From positions 1 through 64,000 of the forward strand of contig JADCFN010000012.1 in NCBI GenBank assembly GCA_020249505.1: a DNA stretch of 64,000 nucleotides, read 5' to 3'. The number at the start of each line of letters is the position of its first letter. Within the stretch, counting starts at the first letter, position 1. The position numbers and the translations under genes were made by a program. The notes under the pieces were generated by a model. That model had not been told where the DNA came from, did not search any database, and saw only the letters and a list, made by a program, of their open reading frames with translations. This stretch comes from Roseomonas sp. Its GTDB lineage: Bacteria; Pseudomonadota; Alphaproteobacteria; Acetobacterales; Acetobacteraceae. Below are positions 8,237 to 28,259 of this stretch, one piece after another.

Positions 8237-9196
8237 ATGACCGATTTGCCACGCCAGGTGGATATCGCCGAGGAAGGCCCGCGTGAGGGCTTTCAGATTG
8301 AGAAAAATCCGATCCCAAGCGCGGATAAGATCGCGCTGATTGATGCGCTTTCGGCAACCGGCCTCAAGCATATTCAGGTAGCCTCCTTTGTCTCGCCCAA
8401 GCTCGTGCCAGGTTGGGCCGATGCTGAAGCGGTTGTCGCAGGATTCACGCGAAACCCCGATATTCATTATACCGCGCTCTGGTTCAATGCGGCGGGGCTG
8501 GATCGTGCGATGGCCTTCAAGGATCGCTTGCATCTTTTTGGGTCCATCAGCCTTGCCGCATCTGAGGCGTTTTCGTTGAAGAACCTAAACCGTGATCGCG
8601 CCGGACAGATTGAAGCCATGCGCAAGCAAACGGCAGCACACGTAACCGTTGGCGTGCCGGTAACGCGCATTGGGCTGCAAGCGGCCTTTGGTTGCAATTA
8701 TGCCGGCGATGTCGCCCCCGCCCAGGTCATGGCAGCGATTACGGATGGCCTGAAAATTGCCACTGAAGCGGCTGTTGCGATCCGTGATTTGACCCTGGCC
8801 GACACCATGGGCTGGGCCAATCCACACCAGATCGAAACCGTGGTTGGTGAGGTACGCAATCGCTGGCCGGAATTGCGGCTTTCGCTGCATTTGCACGATA
8901 CGCGCGGCCTTGGCATTGCCAATGCCATGGCGGGTTTGCGCATGGGTGTGGCGCGTTTTGATGCCGCGGTGGGCGGCCTTGGCGGCTGCCCCTTTGCCGG
9001 CCAGCCAGGCGCGCCAGGCAATATCGCGACCGAGGAATTGGCGCTGCTCTGTGCCGAGCTTGGCATTGCAACCGGTATTGATCTCGAAGCGCTGGTGGAA
9101 GCGGGCAGGCTTGCGGAACGCATTCTGGATCGGCGCCTGCCAAGTGCCGTATTGCGCGGCGGGACTCTGGCACGGTTTCGCCCGCGCGCGGCTTGA
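8237..9196 (+). CDS. HMG-CoA lyase-like DRE-TIM metallolyase with altered catalytic pair
   Basis: A 319-residue TIM-barrel enzyme of the HMG-CoA lyase / isopropylmalate synthase superfamily, which makes or breaks C-C bonds next to a thioester or keto acid with a divalent metal. The N-terminal motif reads EEGPREGFQIE: Arg16 is kept, but the usual following Asp (R-D-G-x-Q) is Glu17. The metal-binding HLHDT (His218, His220) and the flexible-loop cysteine GGCPFAG (Cys251) are present. GAPGNIATEE replaces GATGNVATED. AAGGA lies upstream of ATG 8237. The Asp-to-Glu change means true HMG-CoA lyase activity is uncertain. Downstream genes are unrelated in function. Confidence 0.82.
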   Translation: MTDLPRQVDIAEEGPREGFQIEKNPIPSADKIALIDALSATGLKHIQVASFVSPKLVPGWADAEAVVAGFTRNPDIHYTALWFNAAGLDRAMAFKDRLHLFGSISLAASEAFSLKNLNRDRAGQIEAMRKQTAAHVTVGVPVTRIGLQAAFGCNYAGDVAPAQVMAAITDGLKIATEAAVAIRDLTLADTMGWANPHQIETVVGEVRNRWPELRLSLHLHDTRGLGIANAMAGLRMGVARFDAAVGGLGGCPFAGQPGAPGNIATEELALLCAELGIATGIDLEALVEAGRLAERILDRRLPSAVLRGGTLARFRPRAA

Positions 9197-12285: not shown

Positions 12286-13089
12286 TCATCTGCCCTCAAA
12301 ACTTGGCGCGCGTTTTTCCAGCATGGCATCCACCGCTTCGCGATGATCCCGCGTGCCATGCGCAAGCGCCTGATAAGCTGCCGACATTTCAAGCAGGGTG
12401 GATAGCCGGGTGTGCTGGCTTTCGCGCAGCAGCCGCTTGGTCAGCCGCACCGCTTGCGGCGGATTGGCGGCGATTTTCGCGGCAATAGCGCGTGCCGCAT
12501 CCAATAGCGCTTCCGGCGCCACCACCTTCGAAACCATGCCGCAAGCCAAAGCCTCGGCCGGGCCGATGGTCTCACCGGTGAGTGACAATTCCAAAGCCTT
12601 CGACATGCCAACCACTTTCGGCAGCAAATAAGCCCCACCATCACCGGGCACGATGCCAACCTTCACAAAGCTTTCGGCAAAAAGCGCTTTCTCACTAGCC
12701 ACGCGAATATCGCACATCAACGCCAGATCAAGCCCCGCACCAATCGCCGGCCCGTTCACGGCGGCAATGGTCGGGATATCCAATTCATAAAGCGCGAGGG
12801 GAATCAATTGAATGCCGCGACGATAGCTTTCGCGAATCTCTGCCCCCGTGCCGCCGCCGGTAATGCCGGTTTTGTCCCGCATGCCCTTCAAATCACCACC
12901 GGCGCAAAAGGCGGAACCCGCGCCGGTCACGATCACGCAGCGTACCGAATCATCACGTGACAGGCTACGGCAGGCGGCTTCCACTTCCTCACATTCGGCG
13001 CGCGTGGAAATCGCATTGCGCTTATCCGGGCGGTTCAGCGTCAGGGTAACGATGCCGCCATCACGTTCGATATTCAGAAATGGGCTCAT
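12286..13089 (-). CDS. Enoyl-CoA hydratase/isomerase-family (crotonase) protein
   Basis: A 267-residue crotonase-fold enzyme acting on CoA thioesters. The oxyanion-hole segments FCAGGDLKGM (61-70) and NGPAIGAGLDLALMCDIR (112-129) are clear. Aligned to the classical hydratase, the first catalytic Glu is Asp121 and the second (P-E-I-L-L-G-T-I-P-G) is Phe141. Simple hydration of a double bond is therefore doubtful, and isomerase, hydrolase or lyase activity is as likely. ATG 13089 follows AGGA and overlaps the upstream acyl-CoA dehydrogenase stop as ATGA. It is the last gene of the nine-gene operon that starts at 21433. Confidence 0.85.
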   Translation of the reverse strand: MSPFLNIERDGGIVTLTLNRPDKRNAISTRAECEEVEAACRSLSRDDSVRCVIVTGAGSAFCAGGDLKGMRDKTGITGGGTGAEIRESYRRGIQLIPLALYELDIPTIAAVNGPAIGAGLDLALMCDIRVASEKALFAESFVKVGIVPGDGGAYLLPKVVGMSKALELSLTGETIGPAEALACGMVSKVVAPEALLDAARAIAAKIAANPPQAVRLTKRLLRESQHTRLSTLLEMSAAYQALAHGTRDHREAVDAMLEKRAPSFEGR

Positions 13090-14096
13090 GGGATGATTTC
13101 CTCCTCGCGCGCAGTGATGAAGGGCCAAAGTGCACCCGGCAGCGCTTGCGCTTCCTGCCCAATCCGTTTGGCCCAAAAGGCTTCGCTGCCACCTTCCTCG
13201 CGCCAGGACCAAAGCCGGCGCGTGAAATGATGCAGCTGATGTTCTTCCGTAATGCCCATGGCGGCGAAAACCTGATGCGCAATGGCGGCTCCGCGCGTGG
13301 CGGCTTCACCGACCGTAATCTTGGCGCAACCAATCTCAAACGCCGCTGCCGCCAGGCCACGCCGATCCACCGCACGCGCGGCCGCAGCAGCGGCAACGGA
13401 CGCGGCCGAAGTCTCTGCCGCAAAAACCGCGAGCTGCTGTTGGATGGCCTGAAAGCGCCCGATGGGCCGACCGAATTGCTTGCGCGTATTGGCGTGATCC
13501 ACCGCCAAGGCCAGCGCTGCCTGCATCGCTCCTGCAATCTGTGCTGAGCGCATGAGTGCGGTACACAGCAAGCCCGCTTCCGCGCCCCAGCTATTGGGCA
13601 AAACCGCTTCCGCAATGGGTGCGCCGATGATGCGCGCCCAATCCCGCGCCTCATGGCCGATATTGCCGCCTTCTTCCCAAGCGAGCGCGGCAGCCAGGTA
13701 AAGCGCAATACGCGCCCCATCCAGCAGCGCGACATGGCCAGCATGGCGCCCCCAGGGAATGGCGCCATTGCGGCTGCCAAAACTCATTGCGCCTTCGGGC
13801 GGCGTGATGCCCGAAGCTGCCAGCAAAGCACTGCCAAAAATGCTCTCGGCGAGTGGTACCGGTGCTGCATGGCGACCCAGCACTTCCAGCAAGGGCGCCA
13901 CATCCGCAAAGCCAAGCCCGACACCGCCCGCTGCTTCCGGAACCAGCGCGCCATTCAGGCCAAGTGCCGCCATGGCATCCCATGTGGCGGCAGGCCAAAC
14001 GCCCGCTTCAACCGCGCGCAGCACCGCAACATCGGCCGCATCTGTCAGCGCGCGATCCGCCTGTTCGGCGAGCTCCGTTACAATCTCGCTTACCAT
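13086..14096 (-). CDS. Acyl-CoA dehydrogenase, second (smaller) subunit-like
   Basis: A flavoprotein-family member of 336 residues, shorter than the usual 380-400. The N-terminal helices (EIVTELAEQADRAL) and GVGLGFADVAPLLEVLGRHA are dehydrogenase-like. The middle is eroded compared with full enzymes, while the C-terminal helical domain is kept (DHANTRKQFGRPIGRFQAIQ, then MGITEEHQLHHFTRRLW). Such short members usually pair with a full-length partner in heteromeric enzymes, and one lies directly upstream with a 1-nt gap. ATG 14096 is used; frames further upstream overlap the partner gene. It likely oxidises an acyl-CoA at the alpha-beta bond together with its partner. Substrate unknown. Confidence 0.82.
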   Translation of the reverse strand: MVSEIVTELAEQADRALTDAADVAVLRAVEAGVWPAATWDAMAALGLNGALVPEAAGGVGLGFADVAPLLEVLGRHAAPVPLAESIFGSALLAASGITPPEGAMSFGSRNGAIPWGRHAGHVALLDGARIALYLAAALAWEEGGNIGHEARDWARIIGAPIAEAVLPNSWGAEAGLLCTALMRSAQIAGAMQAALALAVDHANTRKQFGRPIGRFQAIQQQLAVFAAETSAASVAAAAAARAVDRRGLAAAAFEIGCAKITVGEAATRGAAIAHQVFAAMGITEEHQLHHFTRRLWSWREEGGSEAFWAKRIGQEAQALPGALWPFITAREEEIIP

Positions 14097-14097
14097 G

Positions 14098-15237
14098 TCA
14101 GCGCAGCCCCAATTCGCGCGCGATAATGCCGCGCATGATTTCCCGTGTGCCACCACGCAAGGAAAAGGTCGGGACAATCTGCGTCAGATAAGCATGCATA
14201 CGGCGCATATCCTCTGGCATATCTTCGGTCGCGATCAGGTCGCGCACCACATTGGGCAGAGCCTGTTCGAAGTCATTGCCCAAATCCTTGACCAGCGCTG
14301 CTTGCCGCACCGGGTCCTGCCCATCTTCCAACATGCCAGCGACGGCGACTGACATATTGCGCAAAGCCCAAAGCCGCGCGACTTGGCGCCCCAGTGCGGG
14401 TGCCGCCGCGCCATCCTGCTTCAGCGTTGTCATCGCTGCTTCCAGCAAGGGGTGTGATGACAAATACCGATCCGGCCCACTGCGTTCAAACGCCAATTCG
14501 CTGGTCGCCTGCGCCCAGCCCGCACCTTCCTGACCAACCAGCGCATCTTCTGGCAGCATCACAGCATCGAAGGTGATTTCATTGAAGCCCTTCTCCCCCA
14601 CCAGGTCACGGATCGGGCGGATATGCACACCCGGCGCGCGCAAATTCACCAGCACTTGCGAAAGCCCGATATGCCGCGCGCCCCCTTCCGGCGCCGGTGA
14701 GGTACGCACCAGCGCAATCATCCAATCGCAAAGATGGCCGAAGGTGGTCCAGATCTTGCGGCCATTCAGCTTCCAGCCGCCATCCACCTTTTCTGCCTTG
14801 GTGCGGAGTGACGCGAGGTCACTGCCCGAATCAGGTTCGGAAAGGCCGATGCAAAACGCGTATTCGCCGCTTGCGATGCGCGGCAGGAAATGGCGCTTCT
14901 GTTCTTCCGTGCCGAGCCGCAGGATCAGCGGGCCGGATTGCCGATCCCCGATCCAATGCGCCCCCACCGGCGCACCGGCGGCGAGCATTTCTTCCAGCAC
15001 GATATTGCGTTCCAGAAAGCTGCGTTCCGCGCCGCCATATTCACGCGGCCAGCACATGCCAATCCAGCCCCTGGCGCCGACAGCGCGGGTGAAATCGCGG
15101 TCAAAACCCATCCAGGATCGAGCGCGGATTTCTGGCGTGAAGTTTGGCGCATGTTCCGCCAGAAATGCACGCACTTCCGCACGTAGCGGCGCCGCGCCAT
15201 CCGGCGCATCGCGCAAATCAAAACGAAGCCCAGCCAT
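14098..15237 (-). CDS. Acyl-CoA dehydrogenase, larger subunit-like
   Basis: A 379-residue FAD-dependent acyl-CoA dehydrogenase. FCIGLSEPDSGSDLASLRTKA is the FAD/substrate-binding beta segment (first 20 residues typical), and KLNGRKIWTTFGHLCDW follows. The C-terminal end reads LRGGTREIMRGIIARELGLR, close to the family's G-G-T-x-E-I signature. The following gene is a shorter homologue 1 nt away, suggesting an alpha-beta enzyme of the kind used for bulky or branched acyl-CoAs. The upstream neighbour is a class III CoA-transferase, 12 nt away. Electrons would pass to ETF and the quinone pool. Substrate unknown. Confidence 0.9.
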   Translation of the reverse strand: MAGLRFDLRDAPDGAAPLRAEVRAFLAEHAPNFTPEIRARSWMGFDRDFTRAVGARGWIGMCWPREYGGAERSFLERNIVLEEMLAAGAPVGAHWIGDRQSGPLILRLGTEEQKRHFLPRIASGEYAFCIGLSEPDSGSDLASLRTKAEKVDGGWKLNGRKIWTTFGHLCDWMIALVRTSPAPEGGARHIGLSQVLVNLRAPGVHIRPIRDLVGEKGFNEITFDAVMLPEDALVGQEGAGWAQATSELAFERSGPDRYLSSHPLLEAAMTTLKQDGAAAPALGRQVARLWALRNMSVAVAGMLEDGQDPVRQAALVKDLGNDFEQALPNVVRDLIATEDMPEDMRRMHAYLTQIVPTFSLRGGTREIMRGIIARELGLR

Positions 15238-15249
15238 GGCGTAGCCCCC

Positions 15250-16476
15250 TTACAAGACGCCGGCGGCACGTGCCGCGGCGATTTCTTCTTCTGTCATCTC
15301 AGCAAATTCGCGCAGCACCGCATCCGTATGCTCACCAGGTGCGGGTATACCGTAGCGATAGGTCACTGGCGTCGCGGTAAGATGGAGCGGTGAGGCCGGC
15401 ACGCGGACCTGCCCGCCGGCATGATGCGGCACTTCCACAATCAGCCCACGCGCCTTGGTATGCGGATCAGCCGCTACATCAGCGGCAGTATTGATGGGGC
15501 CGGAGGTGATCTTGGCGTCTTCCAAAATTGCCAACCAATCAGCTCTTGGTCTTTGGCGTAACACATCATGCATCATGCCAAGCAGCAGATCGCGATTGGT
15601 CGCGCGATCCCTGGCGCGACGAAAACGCTCATCCTCCGCCCATTCGGCACGACCCAATGCCGCCGCAAGCCTTACAAACTCTCGATCATTCAAAACGCCA
15701 ATGACGAATTTGGCATCCGAGCCCTGGAACACACCATAAGGCACCGCCACCACCGCATCATTGCCGGTACGCTGCATCAGGTTGCCGGCATTGAGCCAGG
15801 ATGCCATGGGTGCCTGCATCAATGACACCATCGTCTCATAGAGCGAGACTTCACAGTATTGCCCTTCGCCGGTCTGATCGCGATGCCTGAGCGCGGCCAG
15901 GATTGAAACCGTTGCGGCAAAGCCTGTGAACATATCCGCCACCGGCACGCCAACGCGCTGCGGGCCGCCACCTAGCTTGCCATCAGGCTCACCGGTCACC
16001 TCCATCAGCCCAGCCATCGCCTGCGCCACAAAATCATAGCCAGAACGATGCGCGTAAGGCCCATCCTGACCGAAGCCCGTGACGGAACAATAGATCAGCC
16101 GCGGATTGATGGCGCGCAAATCCTGATAACCGAGGCCATAACGCGCCAGCGTGCCGGTGCGGAAATTCTCGATCAGCACATCCGCCTTCGCCACCATGCG
16201 TTTCAGAATGACGGCACCTTCGGCTTGCGTAAAATCCAGGCTGAGCGAGCGCTTGTTCCGATTGAGCGAGACGAAATAGGTACTGTCATCACTGCCGGCG
16301 ACAAAGGGTGGGCCAAGGGCGCGCAGATCATCGCCATTGCCTTGGCGTTCCAGCTTGACGATTTCCGCCCCCAGATCGCCCAGCATTTGCGCGCAAAGCG
16401 GGCCTGCCACCACGCGGGTCAGATCGATCACGCGAAGCCCAGTCAGCGCGCCGGGCTTTGGGGTTTCTGTCATCAT
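15250..16476 (-). CDS. Class III (CaiB/BaiF family) CoA-transferase
   Basis: A cytoplasmic enzyme of 408 residues that moves CoA from an acyl-CoA donor to a free acid. The N-terminus has the family signature GLRVIDLTRVVAGPLCAQML with DLGAEIVKLE after it. NRNKRSLSLDF and VLIENFRTGTL are also typical. Asp181 in PVADMFTG corresponds to the catalytic aspartate that forms the mixed anhydride. The gene begins ATGATG, so 16476 or 16473 is the start, 3 nt after the acyl-CoA ligase stop. In this operon it could activate the pathway acid or recycle CoA from a product; partner acids are unknown. Confidence 0.92.
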   Translation of the reverse strand: MMTETPKPGALTGLRVIDLTRVVAGPLCAQMLGDLGAEIVKLERQGNGDDLRALGPPFVAGSDDSTYFVSLNRNKRSLSLDFTQAEGAVILKRMVAKADVLIENFRTGTLARYGLGYQDLRAINPRLIYCSVTGFGQDGPYAHRSGYDFVAQAMAGLMEVTGEPDGKLGGGPQRVGVPVADMFTGFAATVSILAALRHRDQTGEGQYCEVSLYETMVSLMQAPMASWLNAGNLMQRTGNDAVVAVPYGVFQGSDAKFVIGVLNDREFVRLAAALGRAEWAEDERFRRARDRATNRDLLLGMMHDVLRQRPRADWLAILEDAKITSGPINTAADVAADPHTKARGLIVEVPHHAGGQVRVPASPLHLTATPVTYRYGIPAPGEHTDAVLREFAEMTEEEIAAARAAGVL

Positions 16477-16479
16477 GCC

Positions 16480-18090
16480 TCAGCCACCGCGCACACGGGC
16501 GCGCAATTCAAATTTCTGGATTTTGCCGGTTGCGGTTTTCGGCAAGGGGCCGAAGGTGATGTGGCGCGGCACCTTATACCCCGCCAGATTGGCGCGGCAG
16601 AAGGCAATGATACCATCACGGTTTTCCGTCGCCCCCGGCTTTAGTGTGATGAAGGCATGCGGCACCTCGCCCCATTTTTCATCCGGGTGCGCCACCACCG
16701 CAGCTTCCATTACATCGGTGTGGCGATACAGTGCTTCTTCGACTTCCAGGCTGCTGATGTTTTCCCCGCCAGAGATCACAATATCCTTGGCGCGGTCTTT
16801 CACCTCAATATATCCATCCGGATGTAGTACCCCAAGATCACCAGTGCGGAACCAGCCATCCACGAAAACTGCTGCATTGGCTTTGGGGTTGCGGAGATAG
16901 CCCTTCATTACCGTATTGCCGCGAATGGCAATCTCACCAATTGTTGCGCCATCGGCGGGCACAGCCGCACCCGTTTCGGTATTGATTACCGTGGCTTCTT
17001 CCAGCGTCGGTAAGGCCACCCCCTGCCGCGCCATGAAGGCGGCCTTTTCCGGCAAGGGCAGGTCATGCAGGCCGGGCTGCCAGGCGCATAGCAGCGAAGG
17101 GCCGTAGCACTCCGTCAGGCCATAAAGATGCGTAACATCAAAGCCAAGATTTTCCATGGCCGCGATTACCGGCGAAGGTGGCGCCGCGCCGCCAGTCGCG
17201 ATGCCAACACGATGCGCGAAGCTGCGGCGTTGATCTTCCGGCGCATGGATCAGCATGGTCAGCACCACCGGTGCGGCGCAGAGATGCGTCACCCCATGTT
17301 CGGCAATCAGCGCAAAAATCCGCGCAGGCTCCACGCGTCGCAGGCAAACATGCGTGCCGCCTTGCAGCGTTACCGCCCAGGTATAGGTCCAACCATTGCA
17401 ATGAAACATCGGCAGCGTCCAGAGATAGACGCTCTGCGCCGTCAACCCAAAAGACAGCGCATTGCCGCAGGCATTCAGATAGGCGCCGCGATGATGCGCG
17501 ACCACGCCCTTGGGATCACCCGTGGTGCCAGAGGTATAGGAGAGCGAGATTGCGGCCCATTCATCTGATGGTGGCGTCACAGGAAAGGTGGGGTCACCGC
17601 CCGCAATGAATTCCTCATAAGGTGTCGCTTCAATCGCGGCGCCACCTGGGCCTTCGGGATCATCGATGATGATAATGCGCGGCGGGTTTTCCATCCCGTC
17701 CAAGGCTGCATTCGTCAGCGCGGCAAATTCACGGTCCAGCAGCAGGATTTTTGCGCCCGAATGTCCCAGGATGAAGCGCACTGTTGCCGCATCCAGCCGC
17801 GTATTGATGGGGCAAAGCACGGCATGCGCCATGGGCACGCCATTATGCGCTTCCAGCATTTCTGGAATATTCGGCAGCAGTGCCGCCACCACATCGCCCG
17901 GCGCGATACCCGCCTGACGTAGCGCAGAAGCTAAGCGCCGGCTGCGGTCCAGAAACTGCGCATAGGTGATGCGCCTGGCGCCATGAATAATGGCCACGCG
18001 CTTGCCCCAGATATGCGCCGCACGCGGCAGGAAGGAAACTGGGGAAAGCGGTACGTGATTCGCGGCGGTTTTCGGCAGATCATCCTGCAT
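16480..18090 (-). CDS. Acyl-CoA ligase (AMP-forming), LvaE-like candidate
   Basis: A 536-residue adenylate-forming ligase that activates a carboxylic acid to its CoA thioester using ATP. The P-loop is YTSGTTGDPKG (185-195). YGLTECYGP, WFRTGDLGVLHPDGYIEVKDR (acceptor-domain hinge region, first part) and PKTATGKIQK at the C-terminus, with the catalytic Lys, are all present. It starts 3 nt after the DUF6285 gene. In the Pseudomonas levulinate pathway the ligase LvaE activates the acid at the first step, and the other lva-type partners are all here in the same operon. The overall sequence is also close to medium-chain fatty-acid ligases, so the substrate is open. Confidence 0.9.
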   Translation of the reverse strand: MQDDLPKTAANHVPLSPVSFLPRAAHIWGKRVAIIHGARRITYAQFLDRSRRLASALRQAGIAPGDVVAALLPNIPEMLEAHNGVPMAHAVLCPINTRLDAATVRFILGHSGAKILLLDREFAALTNAALDGMENPPRIIIIDDPEGPGGAAIEATPYEEFIAGGDPTFPVTPPSDEWAAISLSYTSGTTGDPKGVVAHHRGAYLNACGNALSFGLTAQSVYLWTLPMFHCNGWTYTWAVTLQGGTHVCLRRVEPARIFALIAEHGVTHLCAAPVVLTMLIHAPEDQRRSFAHRVGIATGGAAPPSPVIAAMENLGFDVTHLYGLTECYGPSLLCAWQPGLHDLPLPEKAAFMARQGVALPTLEEATVINTETGAAVPADGATIGEIAIRGNTVMKGYLRNPKANAAVFVDGWFRTGDLGVLHPDGYIEVKDRAKDIVISGGENISSLEVEEALYRHTDVMEAAVVAHPDEKWGEVPHAFITLKPGATENRDGIIAFCRANLAGYKVPRHITFGPLPKTATGKIQKFELRARVRGG

Positions 18091-18093
18091 GCT

Positions 18094-18453
18094 TCAGCCC
18101 TTTCCCAAAACCCGAGGCGCGCTGATGGCGCAACGCCTCCGCGCAGCCTCCCGCAGCAGCGCCGCCGCTTCCGTATGATGCGCGCTACCCGGATCAAAAG
18201 CACCCGCTCGAATAGCGGCAGCCAAGGCACGGTCCGGCGCCTCAGTCGCGCCCGTCAGGCGGTGGATGGAGGCGCGTGTTTCTTCCACCCACATCGCATC
18301 CTGCGCGGCCTCTCGCGCTGCAATCGCCATGGCATTGGCGATCATGCGCGCGGTAAACGCATCCGCGGCGGAAAGCTTCGGCAGAATCTCCTGCAACAGC
18401 GCATCGCGTGCGGTGGCCAATAGGCTTGCGCCCTCCGGCGCTTCACGCTGCAT
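18094..18453 (-). CDS. DUF6285 protein (LvaB-like partner of the kinase)
   Basis: A 119-residue, mostly helical cytoplasmic protein with conserved ATARDALLQEILPKL, then FTARMIANAMAIAAREA, a pattern of the DUF6285 family. In Pseudomonas putida the similar-sized LvaB is needed with the kinase LvaA to phosphorylate 4-hydroxyacyl-CoA. The start overlaps the kinase gene's stop by 11 nt, so the two are translationally coupled, as expected for subunits of one enzyme. No catalytic motif is visible. Assignment as LvaB rests on family and gene order, not on residue-level evidence. Confidence 0.8.
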   Translation of the reverse strand: MQREAPEGASLLATARDALLQEILPKLSAADAFTARMIANAMAIAAREAAQDAMWVEETRASIHRLTGATEAPDRALAAAIRAGAFDPGSAHHTEAAALLREAARRRCAISAPRVLGKG

Positions 18454-19450
18454 GGGGCACCCCTGTCATGTTCAGGATTTCCCATTCAAGCTCCGGCACA
18501 ATGTGGCCGGTCAGCGCCAGTTCCAGGCTGGTTTCCTTGCCGGAAAGATGCCGCGCGGCCTGGTCAATCGCAATCACTGCCCAGCGAATATGCGCGGCCA
18601 ATTCCCACCAGGTCACACGCGCCGCATCCACGGCATGGCCCGCTTCTGCGGCATAGCCGGCATAGAAGGCATCACGCGCGCCAATACCGCCTGCCTCGTA
18701 AGCGCTGCCAAAGCGCCAGCATTTGGCACAGAACCAGCCGAGGTCAGCATGCGGTTCGCCCCAGGCAGCAAACTCCCAATCCAGCACGGCTGTCACACCA
18801 GCATCTGACAACATCAGATTGCCGGTGCGGAAATCATTATGGTTCAACACAGGCGGCAAGGGCGGCGGCGCGGTGCGTTCCAAATGTCGCAAACCCCATT
18901 CCAAAACAGGGCGCGGCAGCACTTGCCGATCCAAAGCACGGCGTTGCTCTGCCACGAAAGCCAGACAGGCATCAGCTGGCGGCGCACCTAAAAACGCCAA
19001 ATCCGCGCGCGGCGGCGTGATGCGATGAATGCGCGCCAATTCGCGCCCCAAAGCCGCCACCGCCGCATCACGCCCGCCGCAGAGCGTTTCGCCTTTCACC
19101 ACGCGATGCCCAGCGGCAATGCCCTGCACACGACGCATAATGAAGAACGGCGCACCCAGAATGCCGGTATCGTCACACAGATAAAGCGGTTCCGGCACTG
19201 TCACGCACGCGGCAAAAGCAGCCTGCAACAGCGCAAATTCCGCTGATCGAGGCAAGGAAACCGCCAAGGTCGCGGCATTATCGGTGCGAAGCACCCAGGC
19301 CTCACTACGGCCTACCAGCGTTACATCCAAGGCCCAATTCTGCTGAATGGCACCACCCGAAAGCAGCGCCATGGCGCCAAGTTCAAGATCAGCCGCGCCG
19401 GTTGCCCCGCGCAGCCAATCCTTCAGCTTTGCGCGCCGCGCCTCATCCAT
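18443..19450 (-). CDS. APH-type phosphotransferase (LvaA / ACAD10-11 kinase-like)
   Basis: A protein-kinase-like fold enzyme of 335 residues from the aminoglycoside phosphotransferase superfamily. The catalytic loop is HNDFRTGN (around residue 203) and the metal-binding Asp lies in VLDWEFAAWG. LSGGAIQQNW near the N-terminus is the nucleotide-binding glycine-rich segment. Relatives in P. putida (LvaA) and fused in human ACAD10/11 phosphorylate the 4-hydroxyl of hydroxyacyl-CoAs, not drugs. ATG 19450 overlaps the upstream dehydrogenase stop by 8 nt (ATGGATGA). The adjacent dehydrogenase and DUF6285 genes make this the strongest part of the lva-like assignment. Antibiotic resistance is not suggested. 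Confidence 0.88.
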   Translation of the reverse strand: MDEARRAKLKDWLRGATGAADLELGAMALLSGGAIQQNWALDVTLVGRSEAWVLRTDNAATLAVSLPRSAEFALLQAAFAACVTVPEPLYLCDDTGILGAPFFIMRRVQGIAAGHRVVKGETLCGGRDAAVAALGRELARIHRITPPRADLAFLGAPPADACLAFVAEQRRALDRQVLPRPVLEWGLRHLERTAPPPLPPVLNHNDFRTGNLMLSDAGVTAVLDWEFAAWGEPHADLGWFCAKCWRFGSAYEAGGIGARDAFYAGYAAEAGHAVDAARVTWWELAAHIRWAVIAIDQAARHLSGKETSLELALTGHIVPELEWEILNMTGVPHAA

Positions 19451-20654
19451 GCTTGGGCGGACCCCAGGCGAAGAAGGAAGAACCCTCTGCCCGCAAGGTA
19501 TTGGCCAACACCATGCGATGCACTTCAGATGCGCCGTCCACCAGCCGCGCCTGGCGGGCATAGCGATACATCCATTCAATTACTGTATCCTTGGAATAGC
19601 CGCGCGCCCCCAGCAATTGAAGCGCCGTATCCACGGATTTGTGCAAAGCATCCGCGACCACGATCTTCGCCATGGAAACTTCTTTCCGCGCGAAGCCGCC
19701 CTGGTCCAGAATCCAGGCCGCCTTCATGGTGAGCAGCCGACCGATTTCAATTTCCATCGCCGCCTGGCCCACAAGCCCCTGCACGCTTTCGCGGTCAATC
19801 AGCTTCATGCCGAAGGAATCGCGTTGCGCGATGCGTTCCATGGCAATTTCCAAAGCACGCCGAGACAAGCCCAGCCAGCGCATGCAGTGCGTCAGCCGCG
19901 CCACGCCCAGGCGCATTTGCGTCAGCTTCAGCCCATCGCCTTCATTCATCAAAAGGTGTTCATTCGGGACTTCCAGCCCGTCGAATTCTAATTCGCAATG
20001 CCCGCCATGTTCTTCCGGACCCATGATCGGAATGCGGCGCACAATCTTCCATCCCGGCTGATCGGCACTGAACAGAAAAGCGGAAAGCCCCTTGCGCGGA
20101 TCATCCGAGGTACGCGCCAGAATAATGAAAATCTTCGCATTGCCGGCACCGGTGATGAACCATTTGCGCCCGGTAATGCGCCAGCGGTCATTCCCAACCC
20201 GTTCCGCCTTGGTATAGGTCAGATTGGGGTCTGAACCGCAGCCATCCGGTTCGGTCATGGCGAAGGCGGATTGCACATCGCCATTCACAATCGGCTGCAA
20301 CCAGCGCGGCTTCATCGCTTCCGGCAAAACGCGATCCAGGATCATCATATTGCCGTCATCCGGCGCGGCGCTATTGAACACCACGGGCCCGAAGATGGAG
20401 CGATTCATTTCCTCATAACAGGCGGCCATGCCTATGCGTGGCAACTCCTGCCCGCCTAGGCGCTTTGGCATTTGCAAAGCCCAAAGCCCTTCCGCCTTCG
20501 CAGCCTTGCGCATCTTGGAAAGCACATGGGGCGCGATGTTTTCATGCTCATCGAAATTCGCGCGGTCGGATTCCAGAGGAATCAGTTTTTCATCGACAAA
20601 GCGGCGAATGCGCCGGCGCATATCATCAATTTCGGGGGGCAGAGAAAATTCCAT
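19443..20654 (-). CDS. Acyl-CoA dehydrogenase family protein (LvaC / ACAD11-like)
   Basis: A 403-residue FAD-dependent acyl-CoA dehydrogenase fold. SAFAMTEPDGCGSDPNLTYT and WRITGRKWFITGAGNAK form the FAD and substrate segments; LLGARGYSKDTVIEWMYR and HRMVLANTLR close the C-terminal domain. ACAD11-like members act on 4-phosphoacyl-CoA made by a partner kinase, eliminating phosphate, and the kinase gene follows here with an 8-nt overlap. It starts 11 nt after the SDR gene. Alternatively it is an ordinary branched-chain dehydrogenase; the kinase and DUF6285 partners argue for the 4-hydroxyacid route. Confidence 0.88.
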   Translation of the reverse strand: MEFSLPPEIDDMRRRIRRFVDEKLIPLESDRANFDEHENIAPHVLSKMRKAAKAEGLWALQMPKRLGGQELPRIGMAACYEEMNRSIFGPVVFNSAAPDDGNMMILDRVLPEAMKPRWLQPIVNGDVQSAFAMTEPDGCGSDPNLTYTKAERVGNDRWRITGRKWFITGAGNAKIFIILARTSDDPRKGLSAFLFSADQPGWKIVRRIPIMGPEEHGGHCELEFDGLEVPNEHLLMNEGDGLKLTQMRLGVARLTHCMRWLGLSRRALEIAMERIAQRDSFGMKLIDRESVQGLVGQAAMEIEIGRLLTMKAAWILDQGGFARKEVSMAKIVVADALHKSVDTALQLLGARGYSKDTVIEWMYRYARQARLVDGASEVHRMVLANTLRAEGSSFFAWGPPKHG

Positions 20655-20665
20655 GACAGCAAAAC

Positions 20666-21433
20666 CTAAAGCGGGTTGATCGAATGGCCGCCATCCACTG
20701 TCACCACCGCGCCGGTTATATGCGCCCCGGCTTCGGAAGCGAGCAGCAATAGCGGCCCGGTAAGGTCCTCGGCAGCGCCCAGCCGGCGCTGCGGGATGCG
20801 CTTGATCATCGCCTGCCCAGCATCGGAGGCGAAGAAATCACGATTGATATCGGTGGCGATATAGCCAGGCGCGATGGCATTCACGCGAATGCCATGCCGC
20901 GCCCATTCCACCGCCAAATGGCGCGTCATGTGCAAAAGCCCGGCCTTGGCGGCAGTATAGCCGACCACACCCGGAATGATGCGCTCCCCAAGGACGGAAG
21001 CGATATTCACCACCACGCCCGGGCACTTCGCCGCCACTAGACGCTTGGCGGCTTCCTGCGCCACCAGAAAACAGCCGCGCAAATTCACATCCAGCACGGC
21101 ATCCCAGTCTTCCGCGCTTTGCTGCAAAGCGGGCTTCGTCACGGCGATGCCGGCATTGTTGACCAGAATATCGCAGGGCGCGCCGAAGGCGGCTCCCGCT
21201 GCGGCAAAGGCGGGTGCGATGCTCTCCGGTGCGGTTACATCCAAAGGCACGGAAACCGCGCGCGCGCCCAATTCGCTGGCCAGCGCTGCCGTCGCGGCTT
21301 CCCGCCGCGCGCCCAAGGCCACGGAGGCACCCGCGCCATGCAAAACCCTGGCAAAATGCGCGCCCAAAACGCCAGACGCACCAGTCACCAGCGCCACGCG
21401 CCCCTGCAACGAGAACATTACAGCAATATCCAC
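20666..21433 (-). CDS. SDR-family oxidoreductase (LvaD-like position)
   Basis: A 255-residue classical short-chain dehydrogenase. The nucleotide-binding TGASGVLG, the NNAG motif, the catalytic YTAAK with upstream Ser in NIASVLG, and the C-terminal ITGAVVTVDGGHSINP are all present. NAD(P)H would reduce a keto group or oxidise an alcohol. GTG 21433 is taken as the start because GGGAGG lies 7 nt upstream; ATG 21418 would also work. It opens the nine-gene operon. In the lva pathway a reductase converts 4-oxoacyl-CoA to 4-hydroxyacyl-CoA before phosphorylation, which would fit, though SDRs are too broad for a firm call. Confidence 0.88.
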   Translation of the reverse strand: MDIAVMFSLQGRVALVTGASGVLGAHFARVLHGAGASVALGARREAATAALASELGARAVSVPLDVTAPESIAPAFAAAGAAFGAPCDILVNNAGIAVTKPALQQSAEDWDAVLDVNLRGCFLVAQEAAKRLVAAKCPGVVVNIASVLGERIIPGVVGYTAAKAGLLHMTRHLAVEWARHGIRVNAIAPGYIATDINRDFFASDAGQAMIKRIPQRRLGAAEDLTGPLLLLASEAGAHITGAVVTVDGGHSINPL

Positions 21434-21547: not shown

Positions 21548-22297
21548 ATGGCAAGCGAAACAAGGGTGGCGCTGGTAACCGGCGCGCAGCAAGGCATCGG
21601 GGCTGCGGCAGCGCGCGCCCTGGCGGCGGCGGGCCATGATGTCGCGATCAATTGGCTGGATGATCAGGCCCAGGCTGAAGCCGTGGCAGCCGAAATCCGC
21701 GCTTCAGGCCGCAAAGCCGCGCTGATCCGGGGCGATGTCGGCTCCGCCGCTGGCGCTGCCGCCCTGGTGGAACAGACCATCGCCGCACTCGGGCGGATTG
21801 ATGTGCTGGTGAATAATGCCGGCATTTTCCCCCGCGTTGAATTCCTGGACATGACCGAAGCCGAATGGGATCTGGTGATCGCCGTGAACCTGAAGGGCAG
21901 CGCCTTTTGCGCCCAGGCGGCGGCGCGGGGCATGGTGGCGGCGGGGATCAAGGGGGTGATCATCAACCTTTCTTCCTCCTCCGTCCGGGGGGCGCCGCTT
22001 GGGGTGCATTACACCGCGACCAAGGCCGGCATTATCGGCATGACGCGGTCAATGGCCCTGTCGCTTGCTTCCAAGGGCATTCGCGTGAATGCCATCGCGC
22101 CCGGCCTGACCGATACTGCGCAGCCGCGCTACGGCAATAGTGAAGCGGAGCTTGCGGTCATGGCGCAGCAAATCCCGCTCGGCCGGATGGGACGGCCGGA
22201 AGAAATCGCCGGCCTGATGGTCTATCTTGCGTCTGATCAAGCCGCCTGGATCACAGGTCAGGTTTATCACATCAATGGGGGCAATTACCTTGCCTGA
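21548..22297 (+). CDS. SDR-family oxidoreductase (glucose 1-DH/FabG-like)
   Basis: A 249-residue short-chain dehydrogenase with TGAQQGIG (cofactor loop), NNAG, the active-site Ser in NLSSSS, YTATK, and the C-terminal WITGQVYHINGGNYL. It is divergent from the acyl-CoA operon across 114 nt, with a G-rich ribosome-binding site before ATG 21548. The mature frame ends 22 nt before a cytochrome c gene. The pairing of a dehydrogenase with a secreted cytochrome is common in this group but need not be functional, since the SDR is cytoplasmic. Substrate unknown; sugar or acyl carbonyls are possible. Confidence 0.9.
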   Translation: MASETRVALVTGAQQGIGAAAARALAAAGHDVAINWLDDQAQAEAVAAEIRASGRKAALIRGDVGSAAGAAALVEQTIAALGRIDVLVNNAGIFPRVEFLDMTEAEWDLVIAVNLKGSAFCAQAAARGMVAAGIKGVIINLSSSSVRGAPLGVHYTATKAGIIGMTRSMALSLASKGIRVNAIAPGLTDTAQPRYGNSEAELAVMAQQIPLGRMGRPEEIAGLMVYLASDQAAWITGQVYHINGGNYLA

Positions 22298-22319
22298 GTC
22301 CCGAAGCAGGAGGATTACA

Positions 22320-22637
22320 ATGCGCCATTGGCTGATCGCATGCGTATTGGCGGCTTTGCCGGGTGCAGCCCTGGCGCAAATGGAACCTGGTGATCCCGTT
22401 GCCGGCCAGCGCCTGGCCGCCACCTGGTGCGCCAATTGCCACCGCATTGCGCCTGCCGGCCCCGGCCCTGCCACGGATATCGCGCCAAGCTTTGCCGCCA
22501 TTGCGGCACTGCCTTCCACAACTTCCATGTCGCTCCGCGCGTATTTGCGTACGCCGCATGCGAATATGCCGGATTACCGCCTGAGCCGGGAGGAGTTGGA
22601 TGACATCGTGGCTTATCTGCTGACGGTCAGGCGTTAA
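22320..22637 (+). CDS. Small periplasmic monohaem cytochrome c
   Basis: A 105-residue secreted protein. ATG 22320 follows GGAGGATT. The signal peptide ends ALPGAALA|Q at about residue 19. The mature part holds one haem site, WCANCH, and a Met ligand is likely in ANMPDY. The remainder (LSREELDDIVAYLLTVRR) is the closing helix of class I cytochromes. It would carry electrons in the periplasm, possibly to a terminal oxidase. It is co-oriented with the SDR gene 22 nt upstream. The 52-nt gap to the next gene leaves operon membership open. Confidence 0.88.
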   Translation: MRHWLIACVLAALPGAALAQMEPGDPVAGQRLAATWCANCHRIAPAGPGPATDIAPSFAAIAALPSTTSMSLRAYLRTPHANMPDYRLSREELDDIVAYLLTVRR

Positions 22638-22689
22638 GCCCCGGCTTGGCGTAAGCGCGATACCGGGTCTAGCATCCCCGCATTGAGAA

Positions 22690-23763
22690 ATGGGGGAAGT
22701 GAACTTGTCCGCAGTCAATAAGCCATTCCGCGTTGCCTATCTGGAACGCGTGCCGCATCCAAGCTTTCTGGAAACCGCCACCGCCGATCCGGCCCTGGAA
22801 GTGGTCCGGCTTTCCCTGGAAAATGGGGAAGAAGCCGCGCTCGCCGAACTCGCCACCTGTGATGGCTATTATGTGCGCGCATCACGCGATGAATTGCCCA
22901 AGGCTTTTCACGTAAATGATGCGCTTTTGCAGCGCCTGCCCAATCTGCTGATGGTGGCGTCCCAGGGCGCGGGGTACGACACGATCAACCCGGAATCCTG
23001 CACCAAGGCCGGCGTGCTGCTGGTGAACCAGGCCGGCGGCAATGCCGAAGCCGTGGCGGAACACGCCGTTGGCATGATGCTGGCGCTGATCAAGAAAATG
23101 CCGCAGACCCATGCCGCCATGCGCGCGGGGGAAGCCAAGAAGCGCGAAGTGTTTATGGGCAATAATCTGCTCAATAAGACGGTTGGCGTGATTGGCATTG
23201 GCAATGTGGGGTCGCGTACCACCGCGATTGTAAAGGCCGCCTTCAACTGCCGCGTGCTGGCCTATGACCCCTATGTGGATGCCGCAACCGTCGCCAAGCG
23301 CGGTGCGGAGAAAGTGGAATTGGCCGAATTGCTGGCGCAGTCCGATATCGTCAGCGTGCACTGCCCGCTCACGCCCCAAAGCCGCGCCATTATTGATGCC
23401 AAGGCGCTTGGCATGATGAAGAAGGGCGCCATTCTGGTGACGACCGCACGCGGTTCCATCCATGATGAAAACGCTGTGCTGGCGGCGCTGGAATCCGGCC
23501 AATTAGCCTCGGCCGGCTTGGATGTTTGGGAACAGGAACCGCCGCCCAAGGAACACCCGCTTTTGTGGCACCCGGCCGTGATCTGCACGCAGCACACCGC
23601 GGGGGTCACGCATGAAAGCCGGTCCATGATCACGCGCATTGCGGCGGAAGCCTTTTCGGCCTGCGCCGCCGCCAAAATGCCGCCGCGCATCATTAATCCT
23701 GAAGTGAAGGACCGCTTCGCGGAGCGCTACGCCGTCGCGCGCGGCCGCGCCATTACGGATTGA
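22690..23763 (+). CDS. D-isomer-specific 2-hydroxyacid dehydrogenase
   Basis: A 357-residue NAD(P)-dependent dehydrogenase of the 3-phosphoglycerate dehydrogenase / D-lactate family. The Rossmann motif is VGVIGIGNVGSRT. The catalytic Arg is in TTARGSIHDE, the Glu in DVWEQEPP and the His in QHTAGVTHES. It oxidises a D-2-hydroxyacid or reduces a 2-oxoacid in the cytoplasm. No C-terminal ACT or regulatory domain is present, so it is not a full SerA. ATG 22690 has no good ribosome-binding site; TTG 22705, with a G-rich site 7 nt upstream, is a strong alternative start. An MFS carrier follows 22 nt later and may supply the substrate. Confidence 0.87.
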   Translation: MGEVNLSAVNKPFRVAYLERVPHPSFLETATADPALEVVRLSLENGEEAALAELATCDGYYVRASRDELPKAFHVNDALLQRLPNLLMVASQGAGYDTINPESCTKAGVLLVNQAGGNAEAVAEHAVGMMLALIKKMPQTHAAMRAGEAKKREVFMGNNLLNKTVGVIGIGNVGSRTTAIVKAAFNCRVLAYDPYVDAATVAKRGAEKVELAELLAQSDIVSVHCPLTPQSRAIIDAKALGMMKKGAILVTTARGSIHDENAVLAALESGQLASAGLDVWEQEPPPKEHPLLWHPAVICTQHTAGVTHESRSMITRIAAEAFSACAAAKMPPRIINPEVKDRFAERYAVARGRAITD

Positions 23764-23785
23764 TCGCGCGCTTGGGCCTTTTTCC

Positions 23786-24949
23786 GTGAGCGCGACCGCT
23801 TCCAAGGCCAGGGTGGTGACGGTGCTTGGCACCACGCAGACCCTGGCCTGGGGGTCTTCCTATTACCTTCCAGCGATTCTGGCCGCACCAATCGCCGAAG
23901 ATCTTGGCCTGTCACGCGCCATGGTCTTTGGCGTGTTTTCGGGCTCCCTACTGCTGACCGCGCTACTTGGCCCCGCAGCGGGCCGCGCGATTGATCAGCG
24001 TGGTGGGCGCGATGTGCTGGCGATATCAAACCTGATTTTCATTTTGGGCCTGCTGATCATGGCTTTTGCCAATGGCCTGCCTTTGCTGATCCTAAGCTGG
24101 TTCATCATTGGCATTGCCATGGCGATGGGGCTTTATGATGCGGCCTTCGCGACTCTTGCCGGGCTTTACGGCAAGGATGCGCGCAATAGCATCACTGGCA
24201 TTACGCTGATTGCAGGCTTCGCCAGCACGGTTGGCTGGCCGCTTTCCGCGTTGATGGAAGCGGAATGGGGCTGGCGTGGCGCCTGCCTTGGCTGGGTGGC
24301 CTTGCATCTGTTCATCTGCCTGCCGCTCAATCGCTTGCTGATCCCAAAAGCACCGCCGCCACCACCAAAGGAAGCCGCGGCACCGCTATCCGCCGAGGAA
24401 ACGCGTGATCGTAAACGCGATATGATCCTGCTTGCATTCGTGTTGGCGACGGCGAGTTTCAGCTCCACCGCGCTTGGTGCGCATCTGCCGGGCTTGTTGC
24501 AATCTGCCGGCACATCGCTGGCCGCAGCGATTGCCGCTGGCGCGCTGATGGGCCCGGCGCAGGTGGCGGCGCGCGTGGTGGAATTCACCATCATGCGCAA
24601 GATGAACCCGCTTTTTTCGGCGCGGATTGCCGCCGGCGCGCATCCGGTGGCGGTCGCGGTACTGATGGCGCTCGGCGCGCCCTTTGCCGCGCTGTTTGTG
24701 ATCATCCATGGCGCAGGCAATGGCTTGCTGACGATCACGCGCGGAACTTTGCCGCTCGCGCTATTCGGTCCCATTGGCTATGGCCAGCGCCAGGGCTTCA
24801 TCACCGCGCCCGCACGCGCTTCCCAGGCTTTCGCCCCCTTGTTGTTTGGGCTGCTGCTCGATGATTTTGGCGCGGCTTCCTTGTGGTTCACGGCCTTGCT
24901 GGGCGTGGCGGCGGTTGGCGCGCTCATGCTCATGCGGGTACGACAATAG
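23786..24949 (+). CDS. MFS transporter
   Basis: A 387-residue membrane protein with about 12 hydrophobic segments. Typical major-facilitator features are AGRAIDQRGGRDVL between segments 2 and 3 and ASTVGWPLSALMEAEWGWR in the first half. A charged central loop rich in Pro/Glu (APPPPPKEAAAPLSAEETRD) joins the two six-helix bundles. The start is GTG 23786. It follows the 2-hydroxyacid dehydrogenase by 22 nt and precedes gamma-glutamyltransferase by 13 nt, so it may belong to either unit. Substrate unknown; co-location suggests an organic acid or amino-acid derivative. Confidence 0.85.
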   Translation: MSATASKARVVTVLGTTQTLAWGSSYYLPAILAAPIAEDLGLSRAMVFGVFSGSLLLTALLGPAAGRAIDQRGGRDVLAISNLIFILGLLIMAFANGLPLLILSWFIIGIAMAMGLYDAAFATLAGLYGKDARNSITGITLIAGFASTVGWPLSALMEAEWGWRGACLGWVALHLFICLPLNRLLIPKAPPPPPKEAAAPLSAEETRDRKRDMILLAFVLATASFSSTALGAHLPGLLQSAGTSLAAAIAAGALMGPAQVAARVVEFTIMRKMNPLFSARIAAGAHPVAVAVLMALGAPFAALFVIIHGAGNGLLTITRGTLPLALFGPIGYGQRQGFITAPARASQAFAPLLFGLLLDDFGAASLWFTALLGVAAVGALMLMRVRQ

Positions 24950-24962
24950 AAAGAAAACTCTC

Positions 24963-26651
24963 ATGACCCAGGATTGGCGCGCACGCGCAGCTTCGCGCTT
25001 CACCACGGAAAAGCGCCCCGCCATTGGTACACGCGGCATGGTGGTGACGAACCATCCGCTCGCCTCGGCTGCAGGGGCCGAGATGCTGGCCGCCGGTGGC
25101 AATGCAGTGGATGGCGCCATCGCCGCGCTATTCGCGCTGACGGTGGTGGAACCCATGATGGTCGGCATTCTGGGCGGCGGCATGGCGCATCTGCGCCTGC
25201 CCGATGGGCGACACACCGTGATTGATGGGCTTTCCACCGCGCCGGCCGCCGCGCGCGCCGATATGTTCACGCCTGCCGAACCCGCCAATGCGATGAATTT
25301 CGAAGCGACGGGCCGCGCCAATATCGTGGGCCCACTTTCCGTCGCGGTGCCTGGCAATTTGCGCGCCTGGTGCGAAACGCTGGAACGCTTCGGCAGCATG
25401 TCACTCGCGGATGTGATGGCGCCCGCCATCCGCCACGCGGCGCGGGGTTTTGCCGTGACACCCTATCTCGCGGAATGCATCAAGGAAGCCGCGCATGATC
25501 TGGCGCGCGATCCTGCCATTGCCGCGCTGCTGTTGCCTGATGGCGCACCGATCAAGCCAGGGGCGCGACTGATCCAGGCCGAGTATGCCGAAACCCTCAC
25601 GCTGATTGCGCGCGAAGGGCCGGGCGTGCTGAAGGGCGCTTTGGGCAGCGTAATTGCCGATGGCATCGGGAAGGCAGGCGGCATTGTCTCCGCCGCCGAT
25701 ATCGCGGATTTCGCAACGATTGAACGGGCACCCTTGCGCGGCGCCTATCGCGGTTATGAGGTTTTGCTGCCACCACCCCCGGCATCTTCCGGCGTACATG
25801 TGCTGCAAATGCTGAATATCCTGGAAGGCTTCGATCTGCGCGGCCTGGGTTTCGGCAGCGCCGATACGCTGCATCTGCTGGCCGAGGCCTTGAAGATTGC
25901 CTTCGCCGATCGCGCCGCCGCCACCGCTGACCCTGCCTTTGTCGATGTCCCCGTCGCGCGGCTGATTTCGCGCGCTTATGGCGATGAACGCCGCGCCGCC
26001 TTGGATATGACGCGCGCGCAAGCCTGGGGGCCGGGTGTCAGCCCGGGCGAGAGCGCCAATACCACCCATGTCACGGTGGCGGATGATCAAGGTAATATCG
26101 TTTGCTCTACCCAGACCATCAATTCGCTGTTCGGCGCGCGCTTCCTGGTGCCAGGTACGGGGCTTATCCCGAATAACTACATGGCGCTGTTTGACCCGCG
26201 CCCCGGCAAGGCTTTGTCAGTGGTACCCGGCAAGCGCATCACCACATCTCAGGCGCCGCTGATTGCGCTAAAGGATGGCAAGCCCGCCTATGCGCTTGGC
26301 ATGCCGGGCGGCTTGCGGATTTTTGGTTCGGTCATGCAGGGTTTCCTCAATTTGGTGGATCACGGCATGTCGTTGCAGGAAGCGGTGGAAGCGCCGCGGC
26401 TTTGGACACAGGGCGCTGCGGTGGAAGTGGAACCGGCTTTTGACGCAGCGGTGCTGGAAGCACTGGCGAAGCGCAAACACAATGTCTCACTCATGCCGCA
26501 TGTGGGTGGCGGGATGAATGCCATCGCCTTCCACGCTGATGGCAGTATGGAAGGCGCGGCTTGCTGGCGTGCGGATGGCACGGCGATTGGTCTTGGCGGT
26601 GGCCTTGCGCGCGCCGGCGTACGCTTCTGGCCTGATCGGGCACATACATGA
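24963..26651 (+). CDS. Gamma-glutamyltransferase family protein
   Basis: A 562-residue Ntn-hydrolase. The chain is expected to cleave itself before the Thr of ANTTHVTVAD, which becomes the nucleophile of the small subunit. GNAVDGAIAALFALTVVEP and the C-terminal PGGLRIFGSVMQ are family signatures. These enzymes cut gamma-glutamyl bonds of glutathione and related compounds. No signal peptide is visible at ATG 24963, so a cytoplasmic role (as in GGT-like acylases) is more likely than the usual periplasmic one. The longer frame from 24774 overlaps the MFS gene and is not used. The stop overlaps the next start as ATGA. Confidence 0.9.
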   Translation: MTQDWRARAASRFTTEKRPAIGTRGMVVTNHPLASAAGAEMLAAGGNAVDGAIAALFALTVVEPMMVGILGGGMAHLRLPDGRHTVIDGLSTAPAAARADMFTPAEPANAMNFEATGRANIVGPLSVAVPGNLRAWCETLERFGSMSLADVMAPAIRHAARGFAVTPYLAECIKEAAHDLARDPAIAALLLPDGAPIKPGARLIQAEYAETLTLIAREGPGVLKGALGSVIADGIGKAGGIVSAADIADFATIERAPLRGAYRGYEVLLPPPPASSGVHVLQMLNILEGFDLRGLGFGSADTLHLLAEALKIAFADRAAATADPAFVDVPVARLISRAYGDERRAALDMTRAQAWGPGVSPGESANTTHVTVADDQGNIVCSTQTINSLFGARFLVPGTGLIPNNYMALFDPRPGKALSVVPGKRITTSQAPLIALKDGKPAYALGMPGGLRIFGSVMQGFLNLVDHGMSLQEAVEAPRLWTQGAAVEVEPAFDAAVLEALAKRKHNVSLMPHVGGGMNAIAFHADGSMEGAACWRADGTAIGLGGGLARAGVRFWPDRAHT

Positions 26652-28246: not shown

Positions 28247-28259
28247 AGGAGAATACGCC

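Follow-up and report, generated by a model that had tools for sequence, protein, structure and literature searches.

In this study, we analyzed a 64,000-nucleotide stretch of DNA from a Roseomonas sp. (the window; GenBank assembly GCA_020249505.1, contig JADCFN010000012.1, positions 1 to 64,000 of the forward strand) and found nine open reading frames (ORFs) on the minus strand, at positions 12286 to 21433, that probably make up a variant of the lva (levulinate) operon and would feed 4-oxo and 4-hydroxy acids into beta-oxidation in this Roseomonas-group bacterium. The homology, the trees, the catalytic residues and the gene order with its variation are all read from the sequence; from them we infer the reactions, the substrate, a heteromeric enzyme and co-transcription of the nine genes. 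The order and range of the genes, from a short-chain dehydrogenase/reductase (SDR) to a crotonase with junctions of a few nucleotides, had been described in a first-pass annotation of the window, and they are borne out by the ORF list and by Pfam, which gives, in transcription order, SDR, acyl-CoA dehydrogenase (ACAD), APH, DUF6285, AMP-binding, CoA-transferase III, ACAD, ACAD and ECH. The features are listed below, with percent identities to the lva reference described later.

20666..21433, minus strand: SDR oxidoreductase, LvaD counterpart, putative 4-oxoacyl-CoA reductase (50% to LvaD; best match in its own genome)
19443..20654, minus strand: dehydrogenase of the ACAD10/11-LvaC family, clade A, predicted 4-phosphoacyl-CoA phosphate eliminase (41% to LvaC; signature residues; tree)
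18443..19450, minus strand: APH-fold kinase, LvaA counterpart, putative 4-hydroxyacyl-CoA kinase (46% to LvaA; catalytic Asp and Asn; tree)
18094..18453, minus strand: DUF6285 protein, LvaB counterpart, putative partner subunit of the kinase (PF19802; 39% to LvaB)
16480..18090, minus strand: acyl-CoA ligase, LvaE counterpart (60% to LvaE; best match in its own genome; NF006020)
15250..16476, minus strand: class III (CaiB/BaiF) CoA-transferase (PF02515; GYD motif)
14098..15237, minus strand: ACADa, first subunit of a predicted heteromeric acyl-CoA dehydrogenase (Pfam N/M/C domain pattern; solved relatives)
13086..14096, minus strand: ACADb, predicted second subunit (Pfam; ATG at 14096)
12286..13089, minus strand: crotonase-fold protein that lacks the glutamate pair of classical hydratases (NF006699; nearest solved structure 7mcm)

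Across the run, the junctions range from −11 to +12 nt. Those from the SDR through ACADa are, in succession, 11, −8, −11, 3, 3 and 12 nt; the ATG at 14096 in the start-codon list, one base past the end of ACADa, is most likely the start of ACADb, which gives a junction of 1 nt, and the ACADb-crotonase junction is −4 nt. The SDR starts with a GTG at 21433, with an alternative ATG further downstream. In the proposed pathway, the ligase (or the CoA-transferase) would form a CoA thioester, the SDR would convert the 4-oxo to a 4-hydroxy group, the kinase and its DUF6285 partner would phosphorylate the 4-hydroxyl, and the clade-A ACAD would remove the phosphate, with transient use of flavin adenine dinucleotide (FAD), to yield a 2-enoyl-CoA. 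The last four genes (the second set) form a separable acyl-CoA set, whose products probably carry out a further alpha,beta-dehydrogenation and C=C step on the same or a co-occurring substrate. Because its ACAD belongs to a distinct clade and a second set is present, the operon is regarded as a variant, not a copy, of lva.

Sequence comparison gives strong grounds for assigning the first five genes to the lva type. As a reference we used the annotated lva operon on plasmid p12939-PER (locus L167), which contains genes for a PrpR-type regulator, a phosphotransferase, lvaB, an ACAD, an SDR, an acyl-CoA synthetase, a DUF485 protein and a cation acetate symporter. When the lva proteins served as queries into the bacterium's own genome (a 4.06-Mb assembly, with the operon on contig C4), the operon SDR ranked first of 56 matches to LvaD (227.2 bits; 157.2 for the next), and the operon ligase ranked first of 17 matches to LvaE (730.5 bits; 581.5 for a 53% paralogue); these best matches, in this one direction, agree with orthology to LvaD and LvaE. 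The ligase also scores above the NCBIfam cut-off of NF006020. The DUF6285 protein, the single DUF6285 match in the genome, reaches 62.7 bits against PF19802 (cut-off, 28.1); an NCBIfam scan assigned it to no family, and DUF6285 was mentioned in no paper in the literature searched.

The kinase (Pfam APH, 127.2 bits) retains, in an alignment with ACAD11, the Asp that is Ala in 8v3u, together with the Asn five residues on, and both residues are kept in all 16 kinases compared. A kinase tree was built from 43 of 44 hand-picked loci of a larger fetched set (L057 gave no kinase) and was rooted at its midpoint, with long branches flagged; in it, the operon kinase falls within a 39-row group (support, 100/99) that holds the lva-type kinases of L157, L160, L167 and L170, with L051 to L053 and a Thermus kinase on the other side. 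The closest named matches of the operon kinase are metagenome-assembled genomes labelled Roseomonas sp., Alphaproteobacteria or Rhodospirillales, followed by Roseomonas and Neoroseomonas strains. The first-pass annotation had staked its case on the kinase and the DUF6285 protein belonging to the lva/ACAD10-11 clade; with the kinase inside the LvaA group and an ACAD that carries ACAD10/11-LvaC residues, that case held at the sequence level. The APH and SDR families are very large, and Pfam alone cannot separate their members, but identities, best matches, residues and trees concur, and it is highly improbable that the kinase and the DUF6285 protein stem from another APH family with a superficial likeness to lva. 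A mere APH artefact was rejected on the same four kinds of evidence.

A DUF6285-type ORF is present in 77 of 80 named loci that were found via the kinase, and in every one of the 77 it starts −30 to +101 nt from the end of the kinase match; the DUF6285 alignment comprised the operon protein and 59 of these. In one genome of a different family (L055, G052), a single 496-aa frame runs over the DUF6285 match, a natural kinase-DUF6285 fusion that offers a handle on the role of LvaB. In several other genomes of the class, an open frame of about the same length is seen where DUF6285 matches.

The operon ACAD carries the residues expected of this chemistry. Its stretch QMRLGVARLTHCMR contains the equivalents of mouse R626, R631, H634 and R637, and the equivalent of mouse D753 is also present, as is a Pro that matches human ACAD11 Pro463, placed by counting in 2wbi numbering. 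The solved full-length ACAD11 chains 8v3u and 8v3v differ at one aligned position, with Asp in the former and Asn in the latter; we read these as the catalytic residue and its mutant form, and the operon ACAD has Asp. Mutations of R626, H634, R637 and the catalytic Asp of ACAD10/11 are described in PMC12440821, and Pro463 is named as a pocket residue of human ACAD11 in PMC11342911. In an alignment of 19 ACAD rows, every row keeps all three Arg as well as the His, Asp and Pro, and 18 rows keep the HCMR motif (HSMR in L057); a motif pattern that demands Gly after RL misses the LvaC-type rows. HCMR, the upstream Arg, the catalytic Asp and the pocket Pro, the marks of an lva-module ACAD, are thus all found in the operon enzyme.

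What is new here, as judged from the trees, is a separate ACAD clade that occurs with an LvaA-type kinase. In a tree of 36 chosen family rows and nine ordinary ACADs, clade A (20 rows, including the operon ACAD) and clade B (15 rows, including LvaC) are each bounded by a 100/99 branch, and each was recovered in 100% of 200 bootstrap trees. The operon ACAD also scores higher against ACAD11 (2wbi; 244.7 bits) than does LvaC of L167 (198.5 bits). The first-pass annotation had matched the kinase, DUF6285 protein, dehydrogenase, ligase and reductase to LvaA, LvaB, LvaC, LvaE and LvaD; the identities, the LvaD and LvaE best matches, the catalytic residues and the kinase tree sustain this match, but the dehydrogenase is not LvaC proper. 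Among the 80 named loci, clade-A ACADs were found in 57 and clade-B ACADs in 17; the other six have no full-length ACAD of either clade, one of them (L087) having an incomplete clade-A ACAD. On the kinase tree, each of the labels A and B requires four changes; therefore, the kinase shows no clean split by ACAD type. The bacterial relatives of ACAD10/11 are placed in two sister clades by their ACADs, with a single kinase group common to both. Among the titles and abstracts returned by literature searches on lva and bacterial ACAD10-type operons, none concerned a clade-A ACAD gene set.

The SDR, ACAD, kinase and DUF6285 genes occur together in 20 of 20 same-genus neighbourhoods (L031 to L050), and the ligase gene is with them in 19 (not in L042). 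Of 34 same-genus genomes, 33 gave a DUF6285 match; the exception, G009, is 78% complete. With the core kept in 20/20 neighbourhoods and DUF6285 in 33/34 genomes and 77/80 loci, this arrangement cannot be put down to chance. DUF6285 is present in 88 of 385 genomes of the class and in eight of 149 genomes of the genus of Pseudomonas agarici, in which one run encodes a CoA-transferase, ACADa, ACADb, crotonase, SDR, MFS-like protein (named by inspection), LvaC-type ACAD, kinase and DUF6285 protein; apart from the MFS-like protein, these are 40, 55, 34, 58, 52, 40, 54 and 35% identical, in that order, to their counterparts here. No ligase match was found within the 21 kb examined in P. agarici. Homologues of lvaABCD in Alpha-, Beta- and Gammaproteobacteria are noted in PMC6692424, which cites Rand et al. 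2017. With its five genes in a compact set, and coming from another lineage, the present operon lends itself to testing the entry of 4-hydroxy acids into beta-oxidation.

The second set begins with the CoA-transferase (PF02515, 427.6 bits), whose nearest solved structures are 4ed9, 10uh and 9br7; its GYD motif is present in nine of nine rows, and ADMFTG in eight, with ADLMTG in P. agarici. By Pfam, ACADa has strong N and M domains and a weak C domain, and ACADb has a matched C domain and an unmatched M domain, so that two adjacent, complementary ACAD genes are present. The best solved relatives of ACADa are 4x28 (a subunit of a steroid side-chain enzyme), 8hk0 and Tcur3483 (6wy9/6wy8); the heteromeric dehydrogenases of the 4x28 and Tcur3483 type likewise pair two adjacent ACAD genes, one weak in its C domain and the other unmatched in its M domain. 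By this likeness in sequence, ACADa and ACADb are predicted to form a heteromeric acyl-CoA dehydrogenase. The crotonase scores above the cut-off of NF006699 (414.8 bits). At the positions of the two catalytic glutamates of the rat hydratase, Asp and Phe stand, by inspection, in nine of nine rows; nor does the crotonase have the Asp of the PaaG-type isomerase of 6sl9/6slb in the column that is Asn in 6sla, where it has Gly, with Asp one residue later. The first-pass annotation had called the crotonase altered; the classical glutamate pair is indeed gone, but the nearest solved structure, 7mcm, shares much of its pattern (FAESF...PGDGG), and the protein therefore belongs to a known sub-type.

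How closely the second set is tied to the lva-type genes was judged from its distribution. All 34 same-genus genomes gave a crotonase match of at least 82%, two of the matches being incomplete. In the 34 genomes that have both it and DUF6285 (our own included; G009, without DUF6285, was left out), the two lie within 10 kb of each other in 15, 138 kb apart in one and on different contigs in 18; assembly breaks may account for some of these 18. Among eight congeners chosen because both sets lay apart, ACADa, ACADb and the crotonase are together in all eight and the CoA-transferase is near them in five, and these stretches gave no ACAD11-type, kinase, DUF6285 or ligase match; in L044 and L045, the CoA-transferase adjoins the lva-type set without the trio. 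Some congeners have a DUF1311-like or Bug gene between the ligase and the CoA-transferase, or a DUF808-like gene between the CoA-transferase and ACADa (names by ORF inspection). Since the crotonase is present in 34/34 congeners and near DUF6285 in only 15/34, the nine-gene run is lineage specific, and the longer or branched substrate to which the first-pass annotation thought the extra genes pointed is unproven. A functional link between the two sets is plausible.

These distributions bear on two further explanations. It is possible, though somewhat doubtful, that the nine enzymes form one dedicated pathway for a longer, branched or cyclic 4-hydroxy or 4-oxo acid. The tight packing of all nine genes argues for such a pathway, as do the P. 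agarici cluster of the second set with an SDR, LvaC-type ACAD, LvaA-type kinase and DUF6285, a Massilia plasmid cluster that joins adjacent ACAD genes to an SDR, LvaC-type ACAD, kinase, DUF6285, thiolase and ligase, the presence of an ACADa relative (48 to 58%) in four of five clade-B genomes at E 1e-90, and the likeness of ACADa to 4x28. It is opposed by the trio's occurrence without an lva-type set in the eight congeners, chosen as these were for separation, and by the eight of 12 further clade-A genomes that lack an ACADa match at E 1e-90 (one of the 18 genomes chosen for this survey, L112, was dropped). It is quite possible that the core serves to salvage 4-hydroxyacyl-CoAs in general, whether derived from lipids or from gamma-lactones, in the manner proposed for ACAD10/11 and with a ligase of broad specificity, and that the second set, a neighbour, became joined to it when spacers were lost. 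The near-universal core of the genus, the DUF1311-like and DUF808-like spacer genes of congeners and the closer score of the operon ACAD to ACAD11 fit this explanation; however, bit scores are no test of substrate, and both sets are also clustered in P. agarici. A bolder proposal, rather unlikely at present, is that the clade-A ACAD operons represent a second lineage of 4-hydroxyacyl-CoA deoxygenation in bacteria, so far undescribed and with a substrate class of its own; in it, the CoA-transferase, heteromeric ACAD and non-hydratase crotonase would work either ahead of the kinase step or following it, on a 4-oxo acid that is branched or cyclic.

Several findings weigh against a variant lva-type operon, the reading that we prefer. 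The likeness of the DUF6285 protein to LvaB is weak (39% over 115 residues; E 2.8e-6). The position of the CoA-contacting Arg176 of the ACAD11 kinase, proposed from modelling in PMC12440821, is Ala in the aligned operon kinase; LvaA of L167 also has no Arg there. The ACAD lies outside the LvaC clade, in sister clade A, as a strict lva operon would not have it, and its substrate range may therefore differ. Several relatives have no ligase gene next to the set: L042, and the Falsiroseomonas-type loci L089, L091 to L093, L095 to L097 and L099 to L101, in which no ligase homologue was seen there; the latter loci weigh against a fixed five-gene set. The second set stands apart from the lva-type set in many congeners, and a close ACADa (68 to 76%) was found in four of the 12 further clade-A genomes (E 1e-90). 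Lastly, an LvaR-type query (L157, 6646 to 8607, an ORF divergent from lvaA and taken as LvaR by its position) found no full-length LvaR in the genome, but six partial matches to residues 334 to 651 of 653, the C-terminal half, and LvaFG (DUF485 protein and cation acetate symporter) were seen neither in the nine-gene run nor in the ten flanking proteins that were scanned, the rest of the genome being outside that search. The operon is flanked upstream by a divergent SDR and downstream by an ORF of 151 aa, assigned to no Pfam family, and then a Usp protein; therefore, no regulator adjoins it, as the first-pass annotation had said of LvaR.

With no full-length LvaR found, and no lva-type symporter in the flanks scanned, levulinate itself is a doubtful substrate. 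A strict levulinate operon with the substrate of P. putida would account for the full set of LvaABCDE counterparts and the 60% identity of the ligase; it is distinctly unlikely, given the partial LvaR-type matches, the flanks without a symporter and an ACAD of the other clade. A plain levulinate operon was rejected for want of a full-length LvaR and for its ACAD clade.

The variant operon shares with the lva operon of P. putida KT2440 (lvaABCDE-FG and lvaR; L167 copy) the LvaA-E counterparts in one run, the predicted chemistry and the ACAD signature residues; unlike it, the Roseomonas run has the order D-C-A-B-E, a sister-clade ACAD and four added genes, no full-length LvaR was found, and no symporter lies in the flanks scanned. 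It shares with mammalian ACAD10 and ACAD11 the kinase and ACAD chemistry and the equivalents of R626, R631, H634, R637 and D753 (mouse) and P463 (human), whereas here the enzymes are separate polypeptides, there is a DUF6285 partner, and kinase R176 is not kept. The levulinate cluster of Pseudomonas citronellolis LA18T likewise has LvaA, LvaC and LvaD homologues in a diverged gene set, with a histidine phosphatase and lvaB not found, according to PMC6692424; the present operon has DUF6285 with no phosphatase after it.

A histidine phosphatase gene lies about 360 to 450 nt past the kinase, behind DUF6285, in 18 of the 167 loci with room for one (L114, L116, L122, L133 to L136, L138 to L140, L160, L165, L169, L172 and L173; three of the 18 are the same place fetched twice, and the 167 include duplicates). 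By analogy with the HAD domain of ACAD10, such a phosphatase may undo stray 4-phospho intermediates.

Other observations concern neighbouring genes and related loci. The Massilia putida plasmid (L174) has a big catabolic cluster with an lva-type kinase, DUF6285, ACAD and SDR, adjacent ACAD genes, thiolases, electron transfer flavoprotein and prp genes. On an Azotobacter salinestris plasmid (L170), the kinase gene occurs twice (one protein accession), about 8.7 kb apart, and a short hypothetical ORF follows the second copy in place of DUF6285. A gene for a molybdopterin dehydrogenase subunit is found close to the second set in Siccirubricoccus (L195) and, by ORF inspection, in two Roseococcus loci; genes for Bug-type binding proteins are scattered. 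On three plasmids, ACADa relatives have thiolase/MaoC, TRAP and FAD-oxidoreductase neighbours, which point to no common substrate. None of these contexts gave away the substrate of the second set. At 8237 to 9196, the window carries a hydroxymethylglutaryl-CoA lyase family gene above its NCBIfam cut-off, with copies of 92 to 94% near the operon in close relatives; Falsiroseomonas-type loci (e.g., L091, L093 and L095) have a lyase homologue of about 50% and a CaiB-type gene of 36 to 38% after the set, on the other strand. The divergent run at 21548 to 31936 encodes an SDR, a D-2-hydroxyacid dehydrogenase, a major facilitator superfamily (MFS) protein, a gamma-glutamyltranspeptidase, a thiamine pyrophosphate enzyme and hydantoinase/oxoprolinase B and A subunits; a 67% relative of its D-2-hydroxyacid dehydrogenase lies near the second set in Siccirubricoccus (L195).

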